A DNA stretch of 31,355 bases from a virus, in IMG/VR virus record IMGVR_UViG_3300048582_000056, positions 1 through 31,355 of that record; one strand, given 5' to 3'. The notes beneath the pieces were generated by a model that was given only the letters and a program-made list of their open reading frames with translations, made no database searches and was not told the origin of the DNA. Shown here in pieces: positions 2,904 through 17,907 of this stretch. Every line of letters starts with the position of its first letter. Position 1 is the stretch's first letter. A program made the translations under genes and the position numbers.

Positions 2904-2926
2904 AGGGCGCACACAGCGCCCTTTTT
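2904..2926 (+). terminator. Rho-independent terminator
   Basis: AGGGCGC (2904-2910), loop ACACA, GCGCCCT (2916-2922), then a T-rich run. It lies between the SSB-like gene and the Gp157-family gene and would attenuate transcription of the downstream genes. Confidence 0.7.
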
Positions 2927-2941
2927 ATTGAGGGTTAAATC

Positions 2942-3442
2942 ATGGGAATGAGCCTTTATCACATGGCAACCGAATATCAGGTTGCCCTAGTCGCGCTGTC
3001 TGATCCCGAGCTTCCTGAAGATGTTGTGGCCGACACACTTGAAGCACTGGAGGGCGAGCTAATCCACAAGGGGCAAGCGGTAGCAGCGTTCGCGCTGAAT
3101 CTCGATGCCGAGGTAGATGCAATCAAGGCAGTAGAGAAGCGAATCAGCGACCGCCGCAAGGCACTGGAAAGCCGAGCAACCCACATGCGCAACTACCTGA
3201 AGATGAATATGGAGCGTTGCGGCATCAGCGAAATCAAGGCGATTGACGGCAGCTTTACCGCGAAGCTGACAGCCGGCCGAGAGTCAGTGGTTATTGATGA
3301 CGAATCGCTAATCCCTGACGACAGCGAGTATGTGAAGTGGTCGCGCACGGTAAGCAAAACGGCCATTGGTGACGCAATCAAGGCCGGCAAAGAAGTTCCG
3401 GGCGCGCATCTGGAGAAGAGGCCGGCGCTAAGGCTCGGGTGA
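2942..3442 (+). CDS. Siphovirus Gp157-family protein
   Basis: 166 residues. The N-terminal two thirds is a long helical/coiled-coil stretch with the typical KGQAVAAFALNLDAE and IKAVEKRISDRRKALE segments. A short C-terminal beta region (SFTAKL, YVKWSRTVSKTAIGDAIKAG) follows, ending in EKRPALRLG. This pattern matches the Gp157 family (PF05565), common next to phage SSB and recombination genes. The biochemical role is not established. A GAGGG site precedes ATG 2942; a second ATG two codons later is possible. Confidence 0.8.
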   Translation: MGMSLYHMATEYQVALVALSDPELPEDVVADTLEALEGELIHKGQAVAAFALNLDAEVDAIKAVEKRISDRRKALESRATHMRNYLKMNMERCGISEIKAIDGSFTAKLTAGRESVVIDDESLIPDDSEYVKWSRTVSKTAIGDAIKAGKEVPGAHLEKRPALRLG

Positions 3443-3909: not shown

Positions 3910-4085
3910 AGAACGAACACCGGAACCCGCCTGACTACCAAGACGGGCGAAACGCTCGCGTTGCAGGACTGCCAAAGATAGCGCCCGCAAACATAACGCC
4001 AGTGCTGCGTTACTGGTGGCTCGCTGGCTATGGAGATATGGATCATGAACTTAAACAGACTGACACAGATAACAGACGCCGCTAA
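3906..4085 (+). CDS. Small protein resembling phage RMF-like proteins, overrun by an HNH gene
   Basis: 59 residues, stop/start coupled to the HTH gene. The core DYQDGRNARVAG followed by YWWLAGYGDMD recalls the G-x-x-A-R-x-x-G ... W-x-x-G-W-x-D pattern of small phage proteins related to ribosome modulation factor; this similarity is weak and inferred. The last ~14 codons overlap the start of the HNH endonuclease gene, and the terminal QTDTDNRRR looks like read-through into foreign sequence. The original 3' end may have been replaced when the HNH gene arrived. Confidence 0.5.
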   Translation: MKNEHRNPPDYQDGRNARVAGLPKIAPANITPVLRYWWLAGYGDMDHELKQTDTDNRRR

Positions 4086-4662
4086 TGGCCGTGCATATTT
4101 TGCATGCAAGTGCGGAAGGACTATTGAATGCACCGTAGCGGATGTTAAGCGAGGAAACACGAAAAGCTGCGGATGCTTGAGGTCAGATATTCAGAGAGCG
4201 CGTTTCCTGTCTAGCAACCCATCTATAAAAACGCACGGAATGAAATCTACTCGGACATACGAGTGCTGGGCATCAATGAAAAAGCGTTGCAAATATCACG
4301 ACTATTACAAAGGTCGCGGGATTAGCGTTTGCGCCAGATGGGAAGTGTTCGAGAATTTTCTTTCGGATATGGGAGAAGTGCCGGAAGGAATGAGCATCGA
4401 CAGGATAAACAATGATCTTGGATACGATCCTGCAAATTGCAGATGGGCAGACAGTCTTACGCAGACAAGAAACAGAAGAAACACCATCAAAGCAGAATAT
4501 TTTGGCGATCTGCTGTTTCTGGCTGAAATAGCAGAAAAAGAAGGCGTTTCTTACTCGGCAATTCTGAAGCGCATGGCCATGAATGGAAATGTCTATTCCA
4601 GGCAATCGCGGCATAAACAATCCCCCCTATTGAACGCCGCAACTTGCGAGGTGTCACCGTGA
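4045..4662 (+). CDS. HNH-type homing endonuclease with N-terminal zinc-binding motif and C-terminal HTH
   Basis: 205 residues from ATG 4045, which has GGAG at a good distance; an in-frame ATG at 4030 is less well placed. The N-terminus holds paired cysteines (C21/C23 and C42/C44, the latter in KSCGC). The central KGRGISVCARWEVFENF and SIDRINND...NCRWA signature is characteristic of a widespread family of phage HNH proteins. Residues about 161-177 (EIAEKEGVSYSAILKRM) form an HTH-like segment for DNA recognition. Its A+T-rich composition differs from flanking genes. It overlaps the preceding small ORF by 41 bases and is probably a selfish insertion. Confidence 0.85.
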   Translation: MNLNRLTQITDAANGRAYFACKCGRTIECTVADVKRGNTKSCGCLRSDIQRARFLSSNPSIKTHGMKSTRTYECWASMKKRCKYHDYYKGRGISVCARWEVFENFLSDMGEVPEGMSIDRINNDLGYDPANCRWADSLTQTRNRRNTIKAEYFGDLLFLAEIAEKEGVSYSAILKRMAMNGNVYSRQSRHKQSPLLNAATCEVSP

Positions 4663-4970: not shown

Positions 4971-5572
4971 TGGACGGACTAATGCTTGCCAATGCCAGCG
5001 CCATCGACAGGAACAGCACCGACTATTACCCAACACCAGAGAACGTCACCTTTGCCCTGATCGACTACTTGAACATTAAGCCGTCAACGATATGGGAGCC
5101 TGCATGCGGAGAAGGTCACATGGCCGAAGCAATCATAAAAAGAGGCCATCGCGTAGTTTCCTCAGACCTGAACTGGCAAGGGTACGGAATCGCCAACATG
5201 GACTTTTTATCGGCTGACCTTCCGGAGTGCGACTGGATTATCACCAACCCGCCATTCAAGTTCGCTGAACAATTCATAGAGCGGTGCATAGATCACGGTA
5301 AGCCGTTCGCGCTACTGCTCAAAAGCCAGTATTGGCACAGCTCTAAGCGCAGAAGCCTATTTGAAAGACATAAGCCCATTGCTGTGCTGCCTCTTACATG
5401 GCGACCTGATTTCCATTTCGGGGCGAAAGGAGGTAGCCCGACTATGGAATGTGCTTGGACTGTATGGGGCGAACAGCCATCGCAAACGACTTGGTACACG
5501 CCGTTGCCAAGGCCGGAAAAACAACAAAATGTTGTCACCTGCCAGCAGGCCACGATGGAGTTTTCATTATGA
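4970..5572 (+). CDS. Class I DNA methyltransferase, probably N6-adenine type
   Basis: 200 residues. The SAM-binding motif I is EPACGEGH (43-50), an acidic SDLN at 65-68 would contact the SAM ribose, and the catalytic motif IV is TNPPF (92-96), an NPPF form typical of amino-methyltransferases acting on adenine. No target-recognition domain or linked restriction gene is seen, so it is probably an orphan phage enzyme that protects phage DNA or modulates its expression. The start is coupled to the previous stop (TAATG). ATG 4982 is an alternative start. The stop overlaps the next start at 5569. Confidence 0.85.
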   Translation: MDGLMLANASAIDRNSTDYYPTPENVTFALIDYLNIKPSTIWEPACGEGHMAEAIIKRGHRVVSSDLNWQGYGIANMDFLSADLPECDWIITNPPFKFAEQFIERCIDHGKPFALLLKSQYWHSSKRRSLFERHKPIAVLPLTWRPDFHFGAKGGSPTMECAWTVWGEQPSQTTWYTPLPRPEKQQNVVTCQQATMEFSL

Positions 5573-8205: not shown

Positions 8206-9180
8206 ATGCGCCCTCGCAAGAATGACCGGCATCTGCCTGCGTGCATGTATCACAAGCATGGCGCGTACTGGTACGTCAAAGGCGGGAAGTGGTCGAAGCT
8301 CGGCAAAGAGTTGGCCGAAGCCATGCAGGAATATACCCGCCTTCAGTCTGCGCCGGCTTTGGGCGGCATGGCAAAGCTGATCGACAAGGCACTGGCGCAC
8401 CACTCAAAGAAGATCAAGCCAAACACCTTGGCGCAGTACACGATTGCAGCGGATCGGCTGAAGGTGATACTGGCGGAGTTTGAGCCGCAACAAGTCCAGC
8501 AAAAGCACGTCGCGGCAATCAAGGTCAGCCTGAGCGGCACGCCGAACATGGCGAACCGCATCTTATCCTTTCTGCGGATCGTCTTTAGCTATGCCGTCGA
8601 GTGGCAGCTTGTGGACAATAACCCCTGCATAGGCGTCAGGCGGCACGAAGAAAAGAAACGGAACCGCTATATCACTGATCGGGAGTTTGAAGCCCTGATG
8701 GCCCACAGCAGCGACTCGATGCGGGTGATTTTCGAGATGGCTTACCTGACCGGGCAGAGGATCGGTGACGTGCTGAAAATTAGGCTTTCTGACATTTCGC
8801 CCGATGGCGTGTCATTCGTGCAGGAAAAGACCGGCTCCAAGCTGATCGTGACCATGACGCCAGATATTGCAGACGTGATCGCCAGGACGAAGGCGCTGCC
8901 GAGAAAGGTGCGCGGCTTAACCCTGTTCTGCGGGAGAGGTGGACGGCCAGTATCTTATGACGTGGCTAAAGAGGCATTTGCGCGCATTCGTGTCGCTGCG
9001 GGAGTTGCAAACGTGACAATCCATGACCTGCGGGCCAAGTCGCTGACAGACGCCGATGAGGAAGGCAAAGACGCGCAGAAGTTGGGCGGGCATACTGACG
9101 CAAGGATGACGGCGCGTTACCTGCGCGGGAAGAAACCGACAGTGGCCATTGCCCCGAACATGCCCAAAAAATCAGGGTAG
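8206..9180 (+). CDS. int: Tyrosine-family phage integrase
   Basis: 324 residues with a strong AGGAGG site just upstream. The N-terminal part is a basic arm-binding region. Residues about 55-135 are the core-binding SAM-like domain (IDKALAHHSKKIKPNTLAQY). The catalytic domain carries R185 (TGQRIGD), K208 (QEKTG), H273 and R276 (HDLRAK), H296 (GGHT) and the nucleophile Y305 (TARYLR), so it appears intact. It would catalyse attP x attB recombination to form the prophage. The stop codon lies within the first copy of a repeated motif that may be an arm-type site in the adjacent non-coding region. Confidence 0.95.
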   Translation: MRPRKNDRHLPACMYHKHGAYWYVKGGKWSKLGKELAEAMQEYTRLQSAPALGGMAKLIDKALAHHSKKIKPNTLAQYTIAADRLKVILAEFEPQQVQQKHVAAIKVSLSGTPNMANRILSFLRIVFSYAVEWQLVDNNPCIGVRRHEEKKRNRYITDREFEALMAHSSDSMRVIFEMAYLTGQRIGDVLKIRLSDISPDGVSFVQEKTGSKLIVTMTPDIADVIARTKALPRKVRGLTLFCGRGGRPVSYDVAKEAFARIRVAAGVANVTIHDLRAKSLTDADEEGKDAQKLGGHTDARMTARYLRGKKPTVAIAPNMPKKSG

Positions 9181-9411
9181 TATTGGACACGCAACTTTTG
9201 CCCAATGAGACAAGTATCGGACAGCGCCCGTAAGTGATTGATTCTACAGACCTTAAAACCCACACCCCCATGATGCAGCAGTATAGGAAAGCGAGACTGA
9301 AAGGCGCAGTAAAATCAAACAGTTAGGCGCGGTACTGTCTAACAATCAACGAGCCGGTAGCACCGCTACAGCCCAGCAAAATCAAGGCGTCATCCGGTAG
9401 TATTAGACAGG
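9176..9411. other. Candidate attP region with repeated integrase-site-like motifs
   Basis: This 233-base gap between the convergent integrase and holin genes contains no ORF worth calling. It holds related motifs: GGTAGTATTGGACA at 9176-9189, AAGTATCGGACAG at 9212-9224, GGTAGTATTAGACA at 9396-9409, and an inverted copy, ACTGTCTAACAA, at 9334-9345. Repeated short motifs beside an integrase gene are typical of arm-binding sites in attP. I cannot identify the core crossover sequence. Confidence 0.45.
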
Positions 9412-9413
9412 CT

Positions 9414-9821
9414 TTAAGCCACGCCTTTTACTTTTTCTACGCTGCGGAACCCACCCAAGCCGAGCATGCCCGTCAGCAGAACCATCAGCGTGTCAGTCGC
9501 AATGGGTGGCGGCACTGGCCATCCCTGAATAGACGACACCCAAGACAGCAAAGGCTGCGCCAGAAAGGTGTAACCCATGCCGGCCACGCAAACCCAGCCA
9601 GCGCCCGGTCGCCACAATGCTGCCGCCTTGCCGCTCTGTGCCTCTGCCTTGTTTACCTCGATCTGGCCAAGCGCCAGCGAAGTGTCAGCGTTGAGCTGTG
9701 CAAGCTCGCCGGTCTGCGCAATCTTGACCAGTTCAATCTTTGCGTTTGATGCGGCCTGAGCATCCGGCAACACTTTGTCCAGTACGTCCCCGATCAGCGG
9801 GATAAGCGCCAGTAAGCTCAT
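9414..9821 (-). CDS. Holin of the 3-TM (GTA_holin_3TM) type
   Basis: 135 residues. A short amphipathic/hydrophobic N-terminus (LLALIPLIGDVLDKV) is followed by a helical linker, then ALWRPGAGWVCVAGMGY with one membrane span (about 75-97) and a second span around 107-124. This matches the three-helix holin family whose WRPg(a/r)GW motif is diagnostic. It would form the membrane lesion that releases the endolysin. It is the last gene of the late operon and its start overlaps the endolysin stop (ATGA). Confidence 0.85.
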   Translation of the reverse strand: MSLLALIPLIGDVLDKVLPDAQAASNAKIELVKIAQTGELAQLNADTSLALGQIEVNKAEAQSGKAAALWRPGAGWVCVAGMGYTFLAQPLLSWVSSIQGWPVPPPIATDTLMVLLTGMLGLGGFRSVEKVKGVA

Positions 9822-10922: not shown

Positions 10923-11323
10923 GGAGCCACCCAGATAGCAGCCTGCGCAGCGCCGGCCAGAGCAAGCGCCTCAGTCAGCTCGGCAACCGTGGCGTCGATC
11001 ACGGAGTTGTCAGCCAGCACCCAATTAACCGTAGTGCCGGGAGCCGCCGCATTGAGTGCCAGAATTGCCCGAGCCATGCGGCCTTGGCTTATCTCGTCAC
11101 CGTCAAAAGTGTTACCGGCAGCAGTGGTTACGTCGATAGCTTCAACCTGAGAGGCACGCTGGGCTTTCCATTCTTCACGGAGTTGTTCCTCAGTCTTTGG
11201 CGGGTTTACATGCGCCTCGACTTCCTCTGGAGTCATTGGCGTTTTGCCATCGGCTAGACCGGCAGCAACCTGATCGGCGTCGTAGGCGAATACGTCGCCG
11301 GTTTCGTCTTTGTAGTAGTTCAT
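10919..11323 (-). CDS. Tail fibre assembly-like protein (DUF4376-like)
   Basis: 134 residues from ATG 11323, which overlaps the tail fibre stop (TAATG) and has GGGAG upstream; a GTG at 11338 is less likely. The N-terminus MNYYKDETGDVFAYDADQV is typical of small proteins following fibre genes. The central EEWKAQRASQVEAIDVTTAAGNTFDGDE segment resembles the DUF4376 domain. The likely role is chaperoning or capping the fibre. Confidence 0.75.
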   Translation of the reverse strand: MNYYKDETGDVFAYDADQVAAGLADGKTPMTPEEVEAHVNPPKTEEQLREEWKAQRASQVEAIDVTTAAGNTFDGDEISQGRMARAILALNAAAPGTTVNWVLADNSVIDATVAELTEALALAGAAQAAIWVAP

Positions 11324-12696
11324 TATCGTAGCTCCCACACGGTAAGTCCCGATCCAACCCCAGAATTTACTGTGAAATTATACGAAGCACCATCCGGCAC
11401 TATGGCTGAAACGTATGATCCGTGGTTTACAGCTCCGTTTGCGCTTCCCGTAACCGCAACCCCTTGCACAGTGACAACAATGCTGGAGTTTGTTGTTGTT
11501 ATGGCGCACCTTCCCTGCACTTCTATGGGCTTACCAGTGCTGTTCGTGTAGGTTGTTGACAGCGCCCTGCTACCAGTCACGTCCTGCCAAGTCTGGCCAA
11601 CGCCAATTGATTTATTGACAGTTGACGAGAAAGACAGCACCTCAACCACGTTCGCAGCAGTCGCCCGCAGAATGCAGGTATCGCCCGCCGCCGTTGTGAT
11701 GTTCGCGCCGGTCTGCGTCACGATGTTGGCGTTGTTGGTCAGCGTCAGCGCGGCATTGAACCGGACGAAATAGCACTGACCAGCGGCGACAGTGAATCCG
11801 GTTATGGTTGTCGTGCCGGTTATGTTGATGTGCCGAGTGCTAGGCGCTGAACTGGTCAGGTTGACTGTTGCGGCTGACGCAACGTCTATTCTGGTGGAGT
11901 TGAGCCAATCGGTTACTTGCACCTGCTGCCAATCGCCCCAAGTAGTCCCGTTCCAGTAACGGGTACGAAACGACCCCGGCGTGACATTAACAGCAGCAAC
12001 CTGGTGAACACGGCTTGCTTGATCGACCATAACCAAGACGGGGCCGGCGCTCCCGCTTGAAGGTGCGGAGGGGTCTGAGGACGCATAACGGTATAGCCCT
12101 GCTGTTTTGGCGTCGTCTAGCGTTACTAGCGGCGCGGTGCCAGCATTCCCCAACCCAAACGCACCGACAGCCATCAAAGCGCCTGCTGTTGTATCTGTTG
12201 TGGAGGTTTGCACGTTCGACGTGCGCAAAACCTCAATCCAACCGCTCCACACTCCAGCGCTCTGCTGCTGCACCCATATTCTGTTAGAGCTTTGATTCAT
12301 AAGAATCTGCGAGCAGTTAGTTGTGCTGCTTCCGGCGATAGTCAGACCTTGACAGTTACTGGTTAGCGGGACATTAAGGGTTGCGTTGTTGGTGCGCCAT
12401 AGCCCTGATGTTGTTTCCAGTCGCGTATCAGTAGCCAGTCTTCCTGAGTTAGTGCCAAGCCCAAACGCCCCGACAGTCATAACAGAGCCTGCCGTTGTGT
12501 CTGTTGCGCTTGTTTGCTTAACGATCCCGTTCGGGATATTTGGATCAGTCGCGCCGCCGATCACGGCCCGCATTTGTGCTATAAATGCGGCGTGCGCTCG
12601 AAAGTAATCGTCTGCGGTTGCTGGCGACTCGCTCCCCGCTGGAGAGTTGGAAGCGACAACCGTTGACAGGTCGGTAATTGCTGATGGTACGGGCAT
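11323..12696 (-). CDS. Tail fibre protein
   Basis: 457 residues from ATG 12696, which has GGGAG upstream; the open frame continues to 12837 but lacks a better start. The N-terminal ~45 residues (MPVPSAITDLSTVVASNSP..., then FRAHAAFIAQMRAV) match the attachment region of many short phage fibres. Two copies of TSxTDTTAGxxMxVGAFGLG (about 62-81 and 164-183) each lead into knob-like modules with WRTNN/YRYAS and W-rich strands. The rest is Ser/Thr/Asn-rich beta structure. It probably binds the host surface receptor. Confidence 0.85.
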   Translation of the reverse strand: MPVPSAITDLSTVVASNSPAGSESPATADDYFRAHAAFIAQMRAVIGGATDPNIPNGIVKQTSATDTTAGSVMTVGAFGLGTNSGRLATDTRLETTSGLWRTNNATLNVPLTSNCQGLTIAGSSTTNCSQILMNQSSNRIWVQQQSAGVWSGWIEVLRTSNVQTSTTDTTAGALMAVGAFGLGNAGTAPLVTLDDAKTAGLYRYASSDPSAPSSGSAGPVLVMVDQASRVHQVAAVNVTPGSFRTRYWNGTTWGDWQQVQVTDWLNSTRIDVASAATVNLTSSAPSTRHINITGTTTITGFTVAAGQCYFVRFNAALTLTNNANIVTQTGANITTAAGDTCILRATAANVVEVLSFSSTVNKSIGVGQTWQDVTGSRALSTTYTNSTGKPIEVQGRCAITTTNSSIVVTVQGVAVTGSANGAVNHGSYVSAIVPDGASYNFTVNSGVGSGLTVWELR

Positions 12697-12725
12697 AGAT
12701 AATGCTCCCGATACAGGGTGATAAA

Positions 12726-12893
12726 ATGTTTGATTTTCTGTTGCCGCATTTGCACTGGTTTGTTGCGTTCGCGGGCCTTGGCCTGCTGGTAGCGCTTGAA
12801 CAGGGATTGATAAAACTGGCGAAGCGCTACTTACCAAGAGGCAGCAAGATGCGCCGCGCCGTTCTCTGGTCGCGCGCTAATGAGCCGGATTAG
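12726..12893 (+). CDS. Small membrane protein on the opposite strand of the late operon
   Basis: 55 residues, MFDFLLPHLHWFVAFAGLG onward, with one membrane span (about 9-28) followed by a basic tail (KLAKRYLPRGSKMRR). AGGG precedes ATG 12726 at a usable distance. Its stop at 12891-12893 interlocks with the convergent stop of the ejection gene at 12890-12892. It fills a ~190-base gap in an otherwise gapless minus-strand operon, which supports it being a gene. A TTGACA lies at 12663-12668 but has no good -10 at standard spacing. The position matches the P22 immI/sieA locus, so a lysogen-expressed exclusion gene is a plausible guess. Confidence 0.5.
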   Translation: MFDFLLPHLHWFVAFAGLGLLVALEQGLIKLAKRYLPRGSKMRRAVLWSRANEPD

Positions 12894-14875
12894 TTGCCCG
12901 TAAAACCAAGCAGCCCGCCAGACGCCAGCGGAGCAAGATGGCTTGCGGCAGGATCGAGAAGCGGCATTGTTGCCCGTGGGTTGAGCAGCCCGTTTACCTT
13001 GACCATCTGATGGCCTTTTCCGGCAACCTCTAGACCGATCTCGGCACCCCTTCCGAGGAAAGGGATATTTTTAAGAACCCGCAGCGCATTTGGTGCCGTG
13101 CTTGAGCCAGCAGGCTTCAGCGGCGCGTTGTTGATGTTTCCAGCCGCGCGCAGAACCTGCTGATAGCCTTCCCATCCATCCTTCCCGAACAAAAGCTGGC
13201 CTTTCTCTGGCCCAATCTTGTCCAGCGCTTTGCGCATTCCGTTGACAGTAAAAGATCCGCCGGTTTCGCCCTGGAGCGTTGCCGAGTCGCGGATGAACAC
13301 CTTGGCGGCATCCTGCAAACTCTGCATAACCGGCAGATTGTGTTCTGCGCTGACTTTCGACAGGCTTTCGAGATCATCCACGCGCATCTTGCCCACCACG
13401 TCAGGCAATTGCTCTGGCGTGAATTTTCCAGACAGAACGCGATCAATCAGCGGATTTGACTCTTGGAACTTGAACCGTTGCGCGGCTGCTTGCCTTGCGC
13501 CTCGGAAAGCCTGCGACAATCCAGCCTGTTCGGCCTGCTGCCCTCCGATAACGCCCGCACCCTCTGAGCCGTAATCGTCAAGCGCATTGATTAGATGAGT
13601 TTTGACGACTCCGAGCGCCTTGGCTTCTGCTGGGTCTGCTGTTCCGTAGATTCGACCGTTAATGGCCTGCAATCGCTGCATGGCCGTCCCCATGTCGAAC
13701 GGCTCCTTGCCGGCTGTTACCTTCTGGAACCATGACAGTGTGTCGGCAGGGAGCTTGCTTCCTAGCATCTGCTTGTCCAGTTCGATTGACGCATCATTGA
13801 CAAACCGATGCGGGTCGAGCGGTATGTCACGGCCTGCCATGTTCCGCGCAGAATTGTAGAGCTGATCCACATTCGACTTCATTGCAGCGTCGTAGCCCGT
13901 CACGGAGTCGGACAGCTTTCGCCCAATTTGGTAGTCGGTAGCATCTGGCGCGCCCTGAGTTACCTTCTGCAATAAGGTCTGATTGGCATCCTTGAACCGT
14001 GCGGCAATCCCATCGTCAACCGTGTTGAGCGTGTTTTCTTCCCACCAGGCGCTCGGGTCGCGTGTTACCCATCCCTTTGTCGGCTTGATGTTCAGCGCCT
14101 CAAAGTCGGCCATTCGCTTGAGTTCGTCAGGGTTGAGATTATCCAGCGCATCGAGCGATGTTTTCCCGACTTTCTTGATCTGCTCCTGCACGGCACGAGG
14201 CAGTGCGTTGAAGTCCAGACCGTTGACCTTGAGCTTTGCGGTAATCGCTGACTCAAGTTCTTGCGTGCCGGCAGAACCCTTCACCAAGTTCTTAACCGCT
14301 GACCCTGTAGCTTGCAGGCCGCGACCAACAGCAAGACCCGCCGCGCCGCCCGTAGCACCAGCGGCAGCACCCTGCGCACGGTCGATTAGATCGCCAGGCG
14401 TTGCAGCCACTCCGAACAGCCCGCCAGCGGTTGCGGCTTGCTTGTAGCTAGTCGGAGCAGTAGCGCCAGCGCCAAGCCACTCAAGCGCGCCACCGGCTGC
14501 TTTAGCCGCCTTCGGAGCGCCCTGTATTGCCTTAATGCCTGCGCCTGCGCCTTTTAGCGCAGAGCCTCCGACATACATCATGCCGGCTTGAGCAAGGCCG
14601 CTGCCGACTTGACCGGCTGTGTCGTTGTTAATGGCTTGGTCAGCAGGCGCGAAGCCGTCAACAGGGTTTAGCCCGAACGATCCAAGAAAGTCGTTTGTGG
14701 CCTTTCCTGCGCCGATGGCTAGGCGCTCAGGCACGCTGTAGCCTTCCATGTAGTCGATCGGCTTGCTCTGTTCCTCGGCTGCAAGTCTTGCGGCAAAGAG
14801 AGCCTCTTTATTTTGCGGAGGCGTTGCGGCCGATTCGCTTGCAAGCCTTTGCGCGAACATTTCCTCTTTGGTCAT
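12890..14875 (-). CDS. Large ejection/internal virion protein (gp16-like position)
   Basis: 661 residues from ATG 14875, coupled to the preceding stop (TAATG). The N-terminus repeats an EEMFAQRLASE / EALFAARLAAEE motif twice. A Gly/Ala-rich hydrophobic region (about 75-200) and a long helical region follow. Large, Ala/Gly-rich helical proteins after the tail stabiliser are DNA ejection proteins in P22-like phages (gp16 is 609 residues). It would be packaged in the capsid and injected with the DNA, possibly inserting in the host envelope. Assignment is by composition, size and gene order. Confidence 0.65.
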   Translation of the reverse strand: MTKEEMFAQRLASESAATPPQNKEALFAARLAAEEQSKPIDYMEGYSVPERLAIGAGKATNDFLGSFGLNPVDGFAPADQAINNDTAGQVGSGLAQAGMMYVGGSALKGAGAGIKAIQGAPKAAKAAGGALEWLGAGATAPTSYKQAATAGGLFGVAATPGDLIDRAQGAAAGATGGAAGLAVGRGLQATGSAVKNLVKGSAGTQELESAITAKLKVNGLDFNALPRAVQEQIKKVGKTSLDALDNLNPDELKRMADFEALNIKPTKGWVTRDPSAWWEENTLNTVDDGIAARFKDANQTLLQKVTQGAPDATDYQIGRKLSDSVTGYDAAMKSNVDQLYNSARNMAGRDIPLDPHRFVNDASIELDKQMLGSKLPADTLSWFQKVTAGKEPFDMGTAMQRLQAINGRIYGTADPAEAKALGVVKTHLINALDDYGSEGAGVIGGQQAEQAGLSQAFRGARQAAAQRFKFQESNPLIDRVLSGKFTPEQLPDVVGKMRVDDLESLSKVSAEHNLPVMQSLQDAAKVFIRDSATLQGETGGSFTVNGMRKALDKIGPEKGQLLFGKDGWEGYQQVLRAAGNINNAPLKPAGSSTAPNALRVLKNIPFLGRGAEIGLEVAGKGHQMVKVNGLLNPRATMPLLDPAASHLAPLASGGLLGFTGN

Positions 14876-16077
14876 TATTGCGCGCCTCCCTGTTTGGCTT
14901 TCCATGCCTGATATTCGGCTTCCATGTCGGCATCAAACTGCGGCATTGCTGCTGGCGGGTTGCTGGAATTGGTCAGGTTTCCACTAGGCCCCGCTGGCTT
15001 GATCCTGTCAGCACCACGGCCAGCCGGCAAAGTCATGTCCTGCTCTGCCTGCGCTCGAGCATCAGCCTTGCTTTTGATGACTTCGGGCGTGTCGCCAACA
15101 ACAGGGAAGAATGTACGGATATTCCCATCAACCTCTTGCTGAGTCGCCGCCGCGCCTGTTTTTGCACGCAGGAATGATTCCGCCCACTGACGCTGCGCTT
15201 GTGCTGCTTGCTGTGCTTCAGCGGGAGCCATCCAGTTAGTCCATGTGCTGCCAGTCGCGCCGACCTTCACTGGCGAAACATCAGGCAGCTCGCTCAGAGT
15301 TCTTGATGCGTCCTTCATCTGGCTCAGATAGATGGATGCCTTCCCCTCCCCCTCGGTCAAGTTTTGGGGGATTTTAGGCATCGGTTGACCTGTTGGAGAT
15401 TTCGGCTCGATAAAATCTCCAGTCCCCTTGTCGATTAGCTTGACTGATCCGTCAGGCATGACTTGGACGTGAGTTCGCTGCGCCGTTTTTTGGATTTCGT
15501 TGGCCTCTGTAAGTATCTGGTTGTTCTGGTTGCGCACAGCAAGCGATTGCTGCTGATACGGGGAAATCCCAACCTCGAAAGTCTGGCCGGCAGTCGGAAC
15601 AACAAACTGCTTTGTGTCACCAGTGTCTACAAGTTGCGGCGCGACGTAGCCGTTAAACCCATCGCCAAGCTGGCGATTTTGCTTATCAAGAGTGATAATT
15701 TTTTTGCCGCCCTTGCCGTCGTCTACTTCCAGCGTTTTCCAAGCCTGCGGCGAACCAAGGCTCGGCAGTTCTGCGTAAGCCTTAATGTCAGAAGGCGAAG
15801 CGCCAAGCTCGGCAGCCTTGCGATAGTCAAACGTCCCGTCTTGACCGTACAGCGTCGGAATAGCCGCCTGAATAGCCGCAGCCTTGTCCTGATCGCGCTG
15901 CTTTTGCTGCAAGGCATCCGCAGCAGAATATCCGGCCAGACCAGCCAGCCCTGCGCGGCCAATGTTGTTGATCGGAGTGTTACGGTTAGCGCCAGCCAGA
16001 CCGCCAAAGCCCGCAGCAAGCAGGCCCATAGCAGCAGGGCTTTTCATCAGATCGAGCAAGCCGTTTGATTCAGCCAT
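14875..16077 (-). CDS. Ejection/internal virion protein (gp20-like position)
   Basis: 400 residues. The N-terminal Gly/Ala-rich hydrophobic stretch (MGLLAAGFGGLAGANR, then GRAGLAGLAGYSAADA) could insert in membrane. Residues about 60-400 are helical, Gln-rich and without Cys. The size and place match P22 gp20 (471 residues). Both flanking starts and stops overlap as TAATG, so it is translated in step with its neighbours. Function is inferred from synteny. Confidence 0.6.
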   Translation of the reverse strand: MAESNGLLDLMKSPAAMGLLAAGFGGLAGANRNTPINNIGRAGLAGLAGYSAADALQQKQRDQDKAAAIQAAIPTLYGQDGTFDYRKAAELGASPSDIKAYAELPSLGSPQAWKTLEVDDGKGGKKIITLDKQNRQLGDGFNGYVAPQLVDTGDTKQFVVPTAGQTFEVGISPYQQQSLAVRNQNNQILTEANEIQKTAQRTHVQVMPDGSVKLIDKGTGDFIEPKSPTGQPMPKIPQNLTEGEGKASIYLSQMKDASRTLSELPDVSPVKVGATGSTWTNWMAPAEAQQAAQAQRQWAESFLRAKTGAAATQQEVDGNIRTFFPVVGDTPEVIKSKADARAQAEQDMTLPAGRGADRIKPAGPSGNLTNSSNPPAAMPQFDADMEAEYQAWKAKQGGAQ

Positions 16078-16559
16078 TACACACCCCCGCGAAGCATGGC
16101 GCGACGGCGCGCGCGCTCTTGCATTCCAGTCTGTACGTTTGCGCCACCTTGGCCGGCAATCTGCGCCAGCACTTCAGGCCCGCCCTGAGTCATAGGCGCA
16201 GGAGCCGGAGCAGCTTGCTCGGGTTGCTCATCGAGCGCGCCAGACATTTGAATGCCGGTCGATGCGGCGTCGATCATTGGCTTGTACTGAGTCAGCGCGG
16301 CACTGGCAGACGACAGAAGGCCCGTAGAAGGAGCAGCAGCAGGCGCAACGATTGCACCCGCACCGTCAGCCCAAGGCGCAGCAGCGGCAGCCCCAGAAGC
16401 AGCCCCAGAGCCTCCCAGCAGACCGCCAATAGCCGGAGCCGCAGCAGCAGCCCCAGCGCCAAGGCCAGCACCCAGCAAAGCGCCTTTCAGCGGGTCTTTT
16501 TTCTTCAGCAGAGCGCCGCCGACTGCGCCGATTCCCATCGGGATCAATAGTGGGAACAT
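16077..16559 (-). CDS. Small Gly/Ala-rich virion or ejection protein
   Basis: 160 residues of highly biased composition. A hydrophobic Gly/Ala-rich N-terminus (MGIGAVGGALLKKKDPLKGALLG then GAGLGAGAAAAAP) contains glycine-zipper-like GxxxG spacing, followed by a Pro/Ala linker and a basic C-terminus. This recalls glycine-zipper membrane-inserting ejection proteins. It lies within the block of ejection-type genes and is TAATG-coupled on both sides. No family is recognised with certainty. Confidence 0.6.
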   Translation of the reverse strand: MFPLLIPMGIGAVGGALLKKKDPLKGALLGAGLGAGAAAAAPAIGGLLGGSGAASGAAAAAPWADGAGAIVAPAAAPSTGLLSSASAALTQYKPMIDAASTGIQMSGALDEQPEQAAPAPAPMTQGGPEVLAQIAGQGGANVQTGMQERARRRAMLRGGV

Positions 16560-17500
16560 TATTTGCCACCTCCGCTCGTTTTGCTGGTCGTCTGACTGCC
16601 AAGGCCCGAAGAAAATACGCCCGACATTGCAGCCAACTGCTTGTAGGGTAAGTTCTCCTTCTCTTGGAACTGCTGATAGTTGAAGTCCAAGCCCTGCTGA
16701 TTCTGATCCTGCTGAATCTGGCCGGCTTTCAGCATCTGCTCGGCGTCAGCGTAGGACTGATTTCCGTAATTCAAGCCAAGCTGCGCGGCCTGCAATTGGT
16801 TAGCGTCTTGCGACTGCTTAACCTGATCGTTCCGTGTTGCCCAATTATTCGCATTCTGGCTGTTGAACTGCTGCGCCTGCATGTTGCGGTTAATGCCAGC
16901 CTCGGCAAGCTGCTGAGTGTTGGCGTAGTCTGCGCCATACATTTGCGCTGCGGTATCGCTCAATCCGCGCTGGAACTGCTCCTGCAATCCTGAGTTGCCA
17001 AAGCTTCCAGAACTCACAGCGCCAGTGTTGAACTGTGAGCGGATCGAGTCCTGCGCCCTGCCTACCATCTTATCTAGGTATGGGTTTTGACCCTGATATT
17101 GATTCTGCCCAGCCGTCACGTCGCCGTAAGGGTTGCGCGTTGCGCTCTGCTCGCCTGCTGATAGCTGGCCTTGCAGGTAATTTTTCCCTTTGTTAATCGT
17201 CGCATCGCCACCCTGCGCACGTTGCAGCACAGCCTGAATGCCTTGATTCTGCGCACCTGTCAGATCAGCAAAACGCTGCTGAGTGTAGGGGTTGTAGGCG
17301 TCATTGCTCAGGTCTAGCGCCTTGGCCGAGTAAGCACTAGCCAGCGGCTTCAATTCGTTCGGGATCGATTGCGTTGTTGTCGAGCCTCCACTACTTCCAC
17401 CGCTCTTGTGCGGGCGCAGCTTGTCACCCTTAAACGCCGGCAAAGCACCCATCGCAGGCCCGCCAAACTCGGCGCTGACCCATTCGTCCATCTGATTCAT
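16559..17500 (-). CDS. Gln/Asn-rich internal virion protein (gp7-like position)
   Basis: 313 residues from ATG 17500, which overlaps the GNAT-like gene stop (ATGA). The first ~50 residues are Gly/Ser rich. The rest is a long Gln/Asn/Ala-rich helical region with AYNPYTQQRFADLTGAQNQ, NPYLDKMVGRAQDSI and RGLSDTAAQMYGADYAN, a pattern shared by internal proteins of many podoviruses. It probably travels in the capsid and helps DNA delivery. P22 gp7 holds the equivalent place. Confidence 0.65.
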   Translation of the reverse strand: MNQMDEWVSAEFGGPAMGALPAFKGDKLRPHKSGGSSGGSTTTQSIPNELKPLASAYSAKALDLSNDAYNPYTQQRFADLTGAQNQGIQAVLQRAQGGDATINKGKNYLQGQLSAGEQSATRNPYGDVTAGQNQYQGQNPYLDKMVGRAQDSIRSQFNTGAVSSGSFGNSGLQEQFQRGLSDTAAQMYGADYANTQQLAEAGINRNMQAQQFNSQNANNWATRNDQVKQSQDANQLQAAQLGLNYGNQSYADAEQMLKAGQIQQDQNQQGLDFNYQQFQEKENLPYKQLAAMSGVFSSGLGSQTTSKTSGGGK

Positions 17501-17907
17501 ATCTCTACCTCCAGCACTGTATATACGGGCTTGTAGCCAAAGCGCATTCGGTAGAGCCGTTCTTGCGCGGGTTTGGCTGCGCAGCGAATGCGGGAGCATC
17601 CGAGTGCTTTTGCCATGTCTTTAAATTCGTCAAAATAGCTTTCGAAGTGGCCGTTGGGCGCATACAGGTCATAAACAAACATGGTGCGAACATTCGGCAA
17701 CTGATCGACCCCAGCCACTACCCAGCCAACAGGCTCGCCGTCATTGTCTATTCGTATCAACGTTCGTTCGCCACGGCTCAGCATCATCTTGAGCTGGTCG
17801 CCGGTTATCTCGTCGGTACTGCCTGAACAGGCGAGGCCGAGGTTGCTTGCGCCTTCCTTCCATGCCTGATCGATGTGTGTCTGCGGTACAACGATTAAAC
17901 GGCCCAT
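17497..17907 (-). CDS. GNAT-like protein in the virion gene block
   Basis: 136 residues with the strand-helix order of the GNAT N-acetyltransferase fold. A strand GEPVGWVVAGV sits near 57-67, MFVYDLYA (76-83) follows, and the closing RIRCAAKPAQERLYRMRFGYKPVYTVLEVEI matches the GNAT motif B end (an RLYxrxGF-like turn). The usual R/Q-x-x-G-x-G/A loop for acetyl-CoA is not evident, so activity is uncertain. It occupies the place of P22 gp14. It could be a structural protein that has adopted the fold, or a modifier of virion or host proteins. Confidence 0.65.
   Translation of the reverse strand: MGRLIVVPQTHIDQAWKEGASNLGLACSGSTDEITGDQLKMMLSRGERTLIRIDNDGEPVGWVVAGVDQLPNVRTMFVYDLYAPNGHFESYFDEFKDMAKALGCSRIRCAAKPAQERLYRMRFGYKPVYTVLEVEI

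Follow-up and report, generated by a model that had tools for sequence, protein, structure and literature searches.

HK97 gp15 is reportedly a phage-encoded moron protein for superinfection exclusion; it comes from another phage type and another genomic place than the gene described here, to which it is likened by description. Closer in genomic place is sieA of phage P22 (complement 13336-13830), which is separated by 22 b from gene 16, the two genes converging; a late-strand terminator stands before the P22 tailspike gene 9. Mutations that escape SieA map towards the C-termini of gp16 and gp20, and the different SieA types do not differ in the specificity for their targets (PMC10883804); strict pairing with a target is thus not a known SieA property. 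The authors of that study found the continued action of SieA on very diverse ejection proteins hard to explain (PMC10883804). A further counterpart occurs in an isolated phage, EBPR podovirus 1 (JF412294), in which gp24, a 54-aa one-span gene on the opposite strand that is annotated only as hypothetical, overlaps the stop codon of gp25, the ejection homologue.

We have analysed a virus-derived DNA of 31,355 nucleotides (IMG/VR record IMGVR_UViG_3300048582_000056, hereafter the window) that carries a small gene in a comparable position. As in P22, the mini-gene immediately follows the last ejection gene, with which it converges, and lies opposite to the late strand and before the tail fibre, and its product is a predicted membrane protein belonging to one of several diverged sequence types; an analogy to the P22 immI/sieA slot had been proposed in a preliminary description of this DNA, and both position and orientation agree with it. 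The mini-protein is nevertheless not a member of the SieA family. SieA has 162-164 aa and 3 predicted spans, compared with 55 aa and one hydrophobic stretch; its gene has a promoter of its own, whereas the window's mini-gene has no recognisable one; and BLASTP detected no sequence similarity between the 2 proteins (E 0.22 over 9 residues). Membership was accordingly rejected for want of homology and on both size and topology. The mini-protein, though no SieA homologue, may work like SieA. It is likewise dissimilar in sequence to gp24 of EBPR podovirus 1.

The mini-gene and its surroundings

Features of the region are collected in the table below. The slot between the tail-fibre start at 12696 and the end of the ejection-type gene at 12890 comprises 193 b (12697-12889) and is the largest gap in the late block of 9.4-28.5 kb. 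The late operon had been called gapless except for some 190 b, which holds for this largest gap but slightly overstates the case, as there are 2 smaller gaps of about 70-100 b. Within the slot, both the list of open reading frames and the sequence itself bear out the reported 55-residue, one-span plus-strand ORF with interlocking stops: its best start is ATG 12726, and its TAG at 12891-12893 interlocks, in TTAG, with the TAA of the ejection-type gene at 12890-12892 on the other strand.

Features of the window around the mini-gene (strand "." for features assigned to neither strand)
Feature	Position	Strand	Basis or remark
Tyrosine integrase	8206..9180	+	PF00589
Tail fibre; N-terminus MPVPSAITDLSTVVASNSPAGSES, conserved, the anchor of the survey	11323..12696	-	
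Divergent leader, 29 b, from tail-fibre start to mini-gene start	12697..12725	.	100% identical in sister phage
Shine-Dalgarno-like AGGGTG	12715..12720	+	5 nt before ATG 12726; identical in sister phage
Mini-gene, 55-aa one-span membrane protein (family II), MFDFLLPHLHWFVAFAGLGLLVALEQGLIKLAKRYLPRGSKMRRAVLWSRANEPD	12726..12893	+	Sequence, conservation, selection, helix model
Cassette that differs from sister phage IMGVR_UViG_3300048582_000098 by exchange; contains mini-gene, last ejection gene, C-terminal half of penultimate protein	12726..15600	.	
Last ejection-type virion gene, 671 aa, convergent with mini-gene	12890..14905	-	Conserved start probably 14875
Penultimate protein of ejection type (400 aa), its C-terminal half lying in the exchanged cassette	14875..16077	-	
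DNA ejection protein-like gene	16559..17599	-	phrog_4287, E 2.9e-7

Hydropathy analysis of the mini-protein gave a single hydrophobic stretch, with residues 13-29 as the best 17-residue window, and an AF2 model (mean pLDDT 74) placed helices at residues 5-35 and 41-50. The protein had no match in Pfam, PHROGs, NCBIfam or PADLOC. A tblastn search of 50,697 phage records with proteins of its own type and of another described below (families II and I, respectively) gave no credible match, and the tail-fibre N-terminus was not found in those records either; the clade thus has hardly any representatives among isolates.

We refer to the convergent 671-aa protein as an ejection protein by its position, by its phrog_4287 neighbour, by the similarity of the gene in the same place in EBPR podovirus 1, and by the SLT transglycosylase domain that some of its relatives carry as an added N-terminal domain (locus L005, 3482-6076; L134, 4398-7007). 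Its own structure model was of low confidence (mean pLDDT 56) and matched nothing in the PDB.

The window phage carries an integrase, as do 31 of the 33 near-complete carriers of such a slot, and lysogeny is therefore likely. The int-holin junction (9181-9413), possibly an attP with arm sites, contains repeated GTATTRGACA and TGTCTAACA-like motifs as well as a stretch of 60 b (9357-9416) that is shared almost unchanged with the sister phage. The early operon includes 2 HNH endonuclease genes (183-701 and 4030-4662), which have as neighbours a gene for a Sak4-like annealing protein (1606-2235) and one for an SSB (2248-2895). For the mini-gene itself, we found no sigma-70 promoter in the window, and in the relatives such promoters were not enriched over synonymous-codon shuffles.

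The leader is longer in many relatives than the window's 29 b. An intrinsic terminator on the late strand, between mini-gene and tail fibre, was predicted in 29 of 45 slots, as against 0.8% in shuffles; P22 shares it with these relatives, and it is lacking in the window and its nearest relatives. In loci L147-L224 it lies around positions 2930-3000, some 20 b from the tail-fibre ATG; it belongs to the late strand and does not follow the end of the mini-gene. Its stem shows covariation in many relatives; the terminator looks bidirectional in 11 relatives. Such a terminator would part the structural genes from the tail fibre and lysis genes unless it were read through or antiterminated.

A selected gene in a slot that is nearly always filled

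Comparison of the same slot in related phages, which had been put forward as a check, showed the ORF to be conserved. All 11 of the contigs first fetched with the 671-aa ejection-type protein have a family II homologue in the slot and on the opposite strand, with the motif LAK[KR][YH]LP[KR]GS.[IMV]R[RK].VL. A wider profile search supplied 2 further carriers for examination: L124 has a family II gene in its slot, and L134, the most divergent (44%), has an opposite-strand one-span ORF of only vaguely similar sequence. By eye, the tails of L134 and of a further group, family VI, look like that of family II, a similarity that falls short of established homology. Prophages of Pseudomonas nitroreducens TX1, P. 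brassicacearum and Vogesella indigofera also carry family II, and P. brassicacearum 38D7 and V. indigofera DSM 3303 are among the lysogens with the slot; of 398 genomes sampled from the P. brassicacearum family, 5 carry family II, 2 of them already known, and the 3 new carriers have it in prophages, adjoining the ejection gene.

Synonymous and nonsynonymous change, the other comparison that had been suggested, proved unequal. Among 12 family II sequences, pS exceeded pN in 66 of 66 pairs with a median dN/dS of 0.25, although pairs of the window with a relative are near synonymous saturation and their single values are rough; mismatch at codon positions 1, 2 and 3 was 0.37, 0.25 and 0.55, respectively. 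The 22 family I sequences gave the same picture (231 of 231 pairs; median dN/dS 0.23). The ORF at 12726-12893 is thus a real gene under purifying selection.

To survey the slot more broadly, we used contigs with the common tail-fibre N-terminus, which gave 61 non-redundant slots, and scored opposite-strand ORFs of 22-75 aa within the slot that had a Shine-Dalgarno sequence and a hydrophobic segment. These criteria were fixed after the first examples had been seen, and the null was run with the same criteria. An SD-preceded one-span mini-ORF on the opposite strand was present in 49 of the 61 slots, compared with chance rates of 1.9% for dinucleotide-shuffled sequence and 2.4% for positions picked at random. 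The mini-ORFs fall, by eye and by pattern and with no formal clustering, into at least 8 dissimilar sequence groups (I-VIII), including family I (MxFTDFMIWKG...IYGFWLGITGR), family III (...NAWWASRRK, plus loosely similar members) and family IV (MDSEQYYRILAVAAISAVV...). In each of 21 representatives the C-terminal tail is more positive than the N-terminus, which predicts an N-out/C-in topology. The slot is therefore conserved, and what is replaced within it are dissimilar families of one architecture. A moron expressed from the prophage had been envisaged for the window's gene; a classical moron would be an occasional insert, and this gene is not one, as in relatives another mini-gene stands in the slot, which is nearly always occupied. 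A profile search run with a positive control found no family II among the portal relatives; what first looked like an absence of the mini-gene turned out to be replacement, as the slots that were read there hold other mini-gene families.

We found no account of this slot in the literature, and no convincing match of the mini-proteins to known defence proteins. PADLOC aligned family IV with PD-Lambda-6 (PDLC04020) at E 1e-3, over the hydrophobic segment only, a weak and likely compositional hit to a 131-position profile that does not match the window's mini-protein. In Pseudomonas phage PAE2 (L226, 5364-5492, minus strand) and Vibrio phage 340E47.2 (L228, about 5334-5549, minus strand), possible unannotated one-span ORFs were also seen on the opposite strand, following the ejection homologue.

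Exchange of the mini-gene together with the ejection gene

The type of mini-gene tracks the ejection gene and not the tail fibre. The product of identity and coverage for the ejection protein C-terminus averaged 0.52 within a mini-gene family and 0.014 between families, where it never rose above 0.34, and tail-fibre N-termini can be identical across different families. Pairs of phages from one ejection cluster had a common mini-gene family in 88% of cases, against a baseline of 23%; the corresponding values were 23% for pairs from one tail-fibre cluster and 37% for the next downstream gene.

The extent of the exchanged unit could be read from close pairs. The sister phage, whose portal is 89% identical to the window's, shares its leader and has a different mini-gene: starting at the first codon of the tail fibre, the 2 sequences remain identical beyond the SD and diverge exactly at the start codon of the mini-gene, which in the sister belongs to family I and adjoins an ejection gene unrelated to the window's. 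At the other end, the sister's counterpart of the 400-aa protein is about 95-100% identical up to residue 120 and at background beyond about residue 200. Similarly, L162 (family I) and L164 (family II) agree in the tail-fibre N-terminus, the leader and the SD, with divergence setting in at the start codon. By these comparisons, the exchanged unit runs from the mini-gene through the last ejection gene into the penultimate protein, of which it includes the C-terminal half. Breakpoints fall inside the ejection gene as well, as the ejection genes of L144 (595-2232) and L003 (4001-6202) share the N-terminus MTEQEEFEFR and differ in their C-terminal bodies and mini-gene families. A leader, GTTGAGTGAGGGCGTTACGCCC-GGAGG, is common to phages with the unrelated families I and II (L155-L200, about 2910-2960, minus strand), and no second copy of GTTGAGTGAGGGCGTTACGCCC-GGAGG was present in any fetched locus. 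It should be noted that the mini-gene and the ejection gene touch each other, so that their co-inheritance could be mere hitch-hiking.

Candidate functions

We consider, with a probability of roughly one half, that the mini-protein is a minimal exclusion protein of the SieA kind, non-homologous to SieA and carried as the cognate partner of the last ejection gene. It would be located in the inner membrane, with a short acidic N-terminus outside, one span and a basic cytoplasmic tail, and would be made in the lysogen, early in infection, or both. When a related phage arrives, the mini-protein may there engage the ejection proteins of that phage, and the DNA conduit would then be unable to form or open, giving superinfection exclusion as by P22 SieA. 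Exclusion directed at the ejection conduit fits the place of the mini-gene, its predicted topology and the unit of exchange, and an ejection-directed function in general fits the finding that the mini-gene is inherited along with the ejection gene and not with the tail fibre, as well as the exchange of the cassette. The presence in that cassette of the C-terminal half of the penultimate protein is consistent with a SieA-like target, as SieA escape maps to the corresponding end of gp16 and gp20. Against this reading count the negative search for a plus-strand promoter, the lack of similarity to SieA or of a convincing match among known defence proteins, and the uniform target specificity of the P22 SieA types.

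The same co-inheritance would be expected if the mini-protein served its own phage in the producing cell, as a partner or antidote that blocks premature insertion of the ejection protein into the inner membrane, or damage there, before assembly, and hence must match it. The SLT domain of some ejection relatives and the membrane anchor of the mini-protein agree with this proposal, which we regard as unlikely though the foremost of the alternatives: the mini-gene is antisense to the late operon and would not be made with the ejection proteins from the same transcript, and P22 gp16 is not known to depend on one of this kind. Only slightly less probable is a difference in timing, with the same target acted upon early in the lytic cycle, as by T4 Imm and T5 Llp, through plus-strand read-through past int. 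The early operon, with int, is on the plus strand and heads towards the slot, and we saw no convincing terminator between them; yet about 3.5 kb of antisense transcription would be required, and the location of int varies among the relatives.

We think it improbable that the mini-gene encodes a hydrophobic peptide of the type I toxin kind, for which the late transcript, or else a short antisense RNA, would be the antisense regulator. The mini-protein is a small one-span hydrophobic peptide with a basic tail, in size and make-up like Ldr/TisB-type peptides; by eye, the tails of family III (NAWWASRRK) are reminiscent of Ldr, and the leader is structured in many relatives. Against this, no Pfam toxin family matched, family II has a conserved polar C-terminal motif (LP[RK]GS.[IM]R[RK]), and there is no obvious reason for a toxin to track the type of ejection gene. 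A role in lysis control, as an antiholin or pinholin, would suit a small one-span protein encoded 2-3 kb from a holin and endolysin, but is less probable still, as the mini-gene is on the strand opposite to the lysis cassette and its type goes with the ejection gene much more closely than with the gene next downstream. A leader RNA or antisense element with an incidental ORF, for which the covarying leader hairpin and the late-strand terminator (29/45) might speak, is very improbable in view of the dN/dS of about 0.25, the third-position excess in 2 families, and an SD and start that are kept while the ORF sequence is replaced.

More tentatively than for the exclusion function itself, and at somewhat less than even odds, we suggest that temperate podophages carry modular cassettes of ejection plus exclusion, in which the last ejection gene and an antisense one-span gatekeeper of 25-63 aa are exchanged as a matched pair while leader and RBS stay, many dissimilar families doing the same job as an unannotated class of minimal exclusion proteins. 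If this is true, one membrane helix of 25-60 residues, matched to an ejection protein, suffices for exclusion at DNA entry; a simple rule of place (opposite strand, adjoining the last ejection gene) would find such genes where annotation skips short ORFs; and the natural swaps of mini-gene and ejection gene are ready-made pairs for testing specificity. Should the function be another, the slot still marks out a group of phage membrane proteins that are under selection and for the most part lack annotation.
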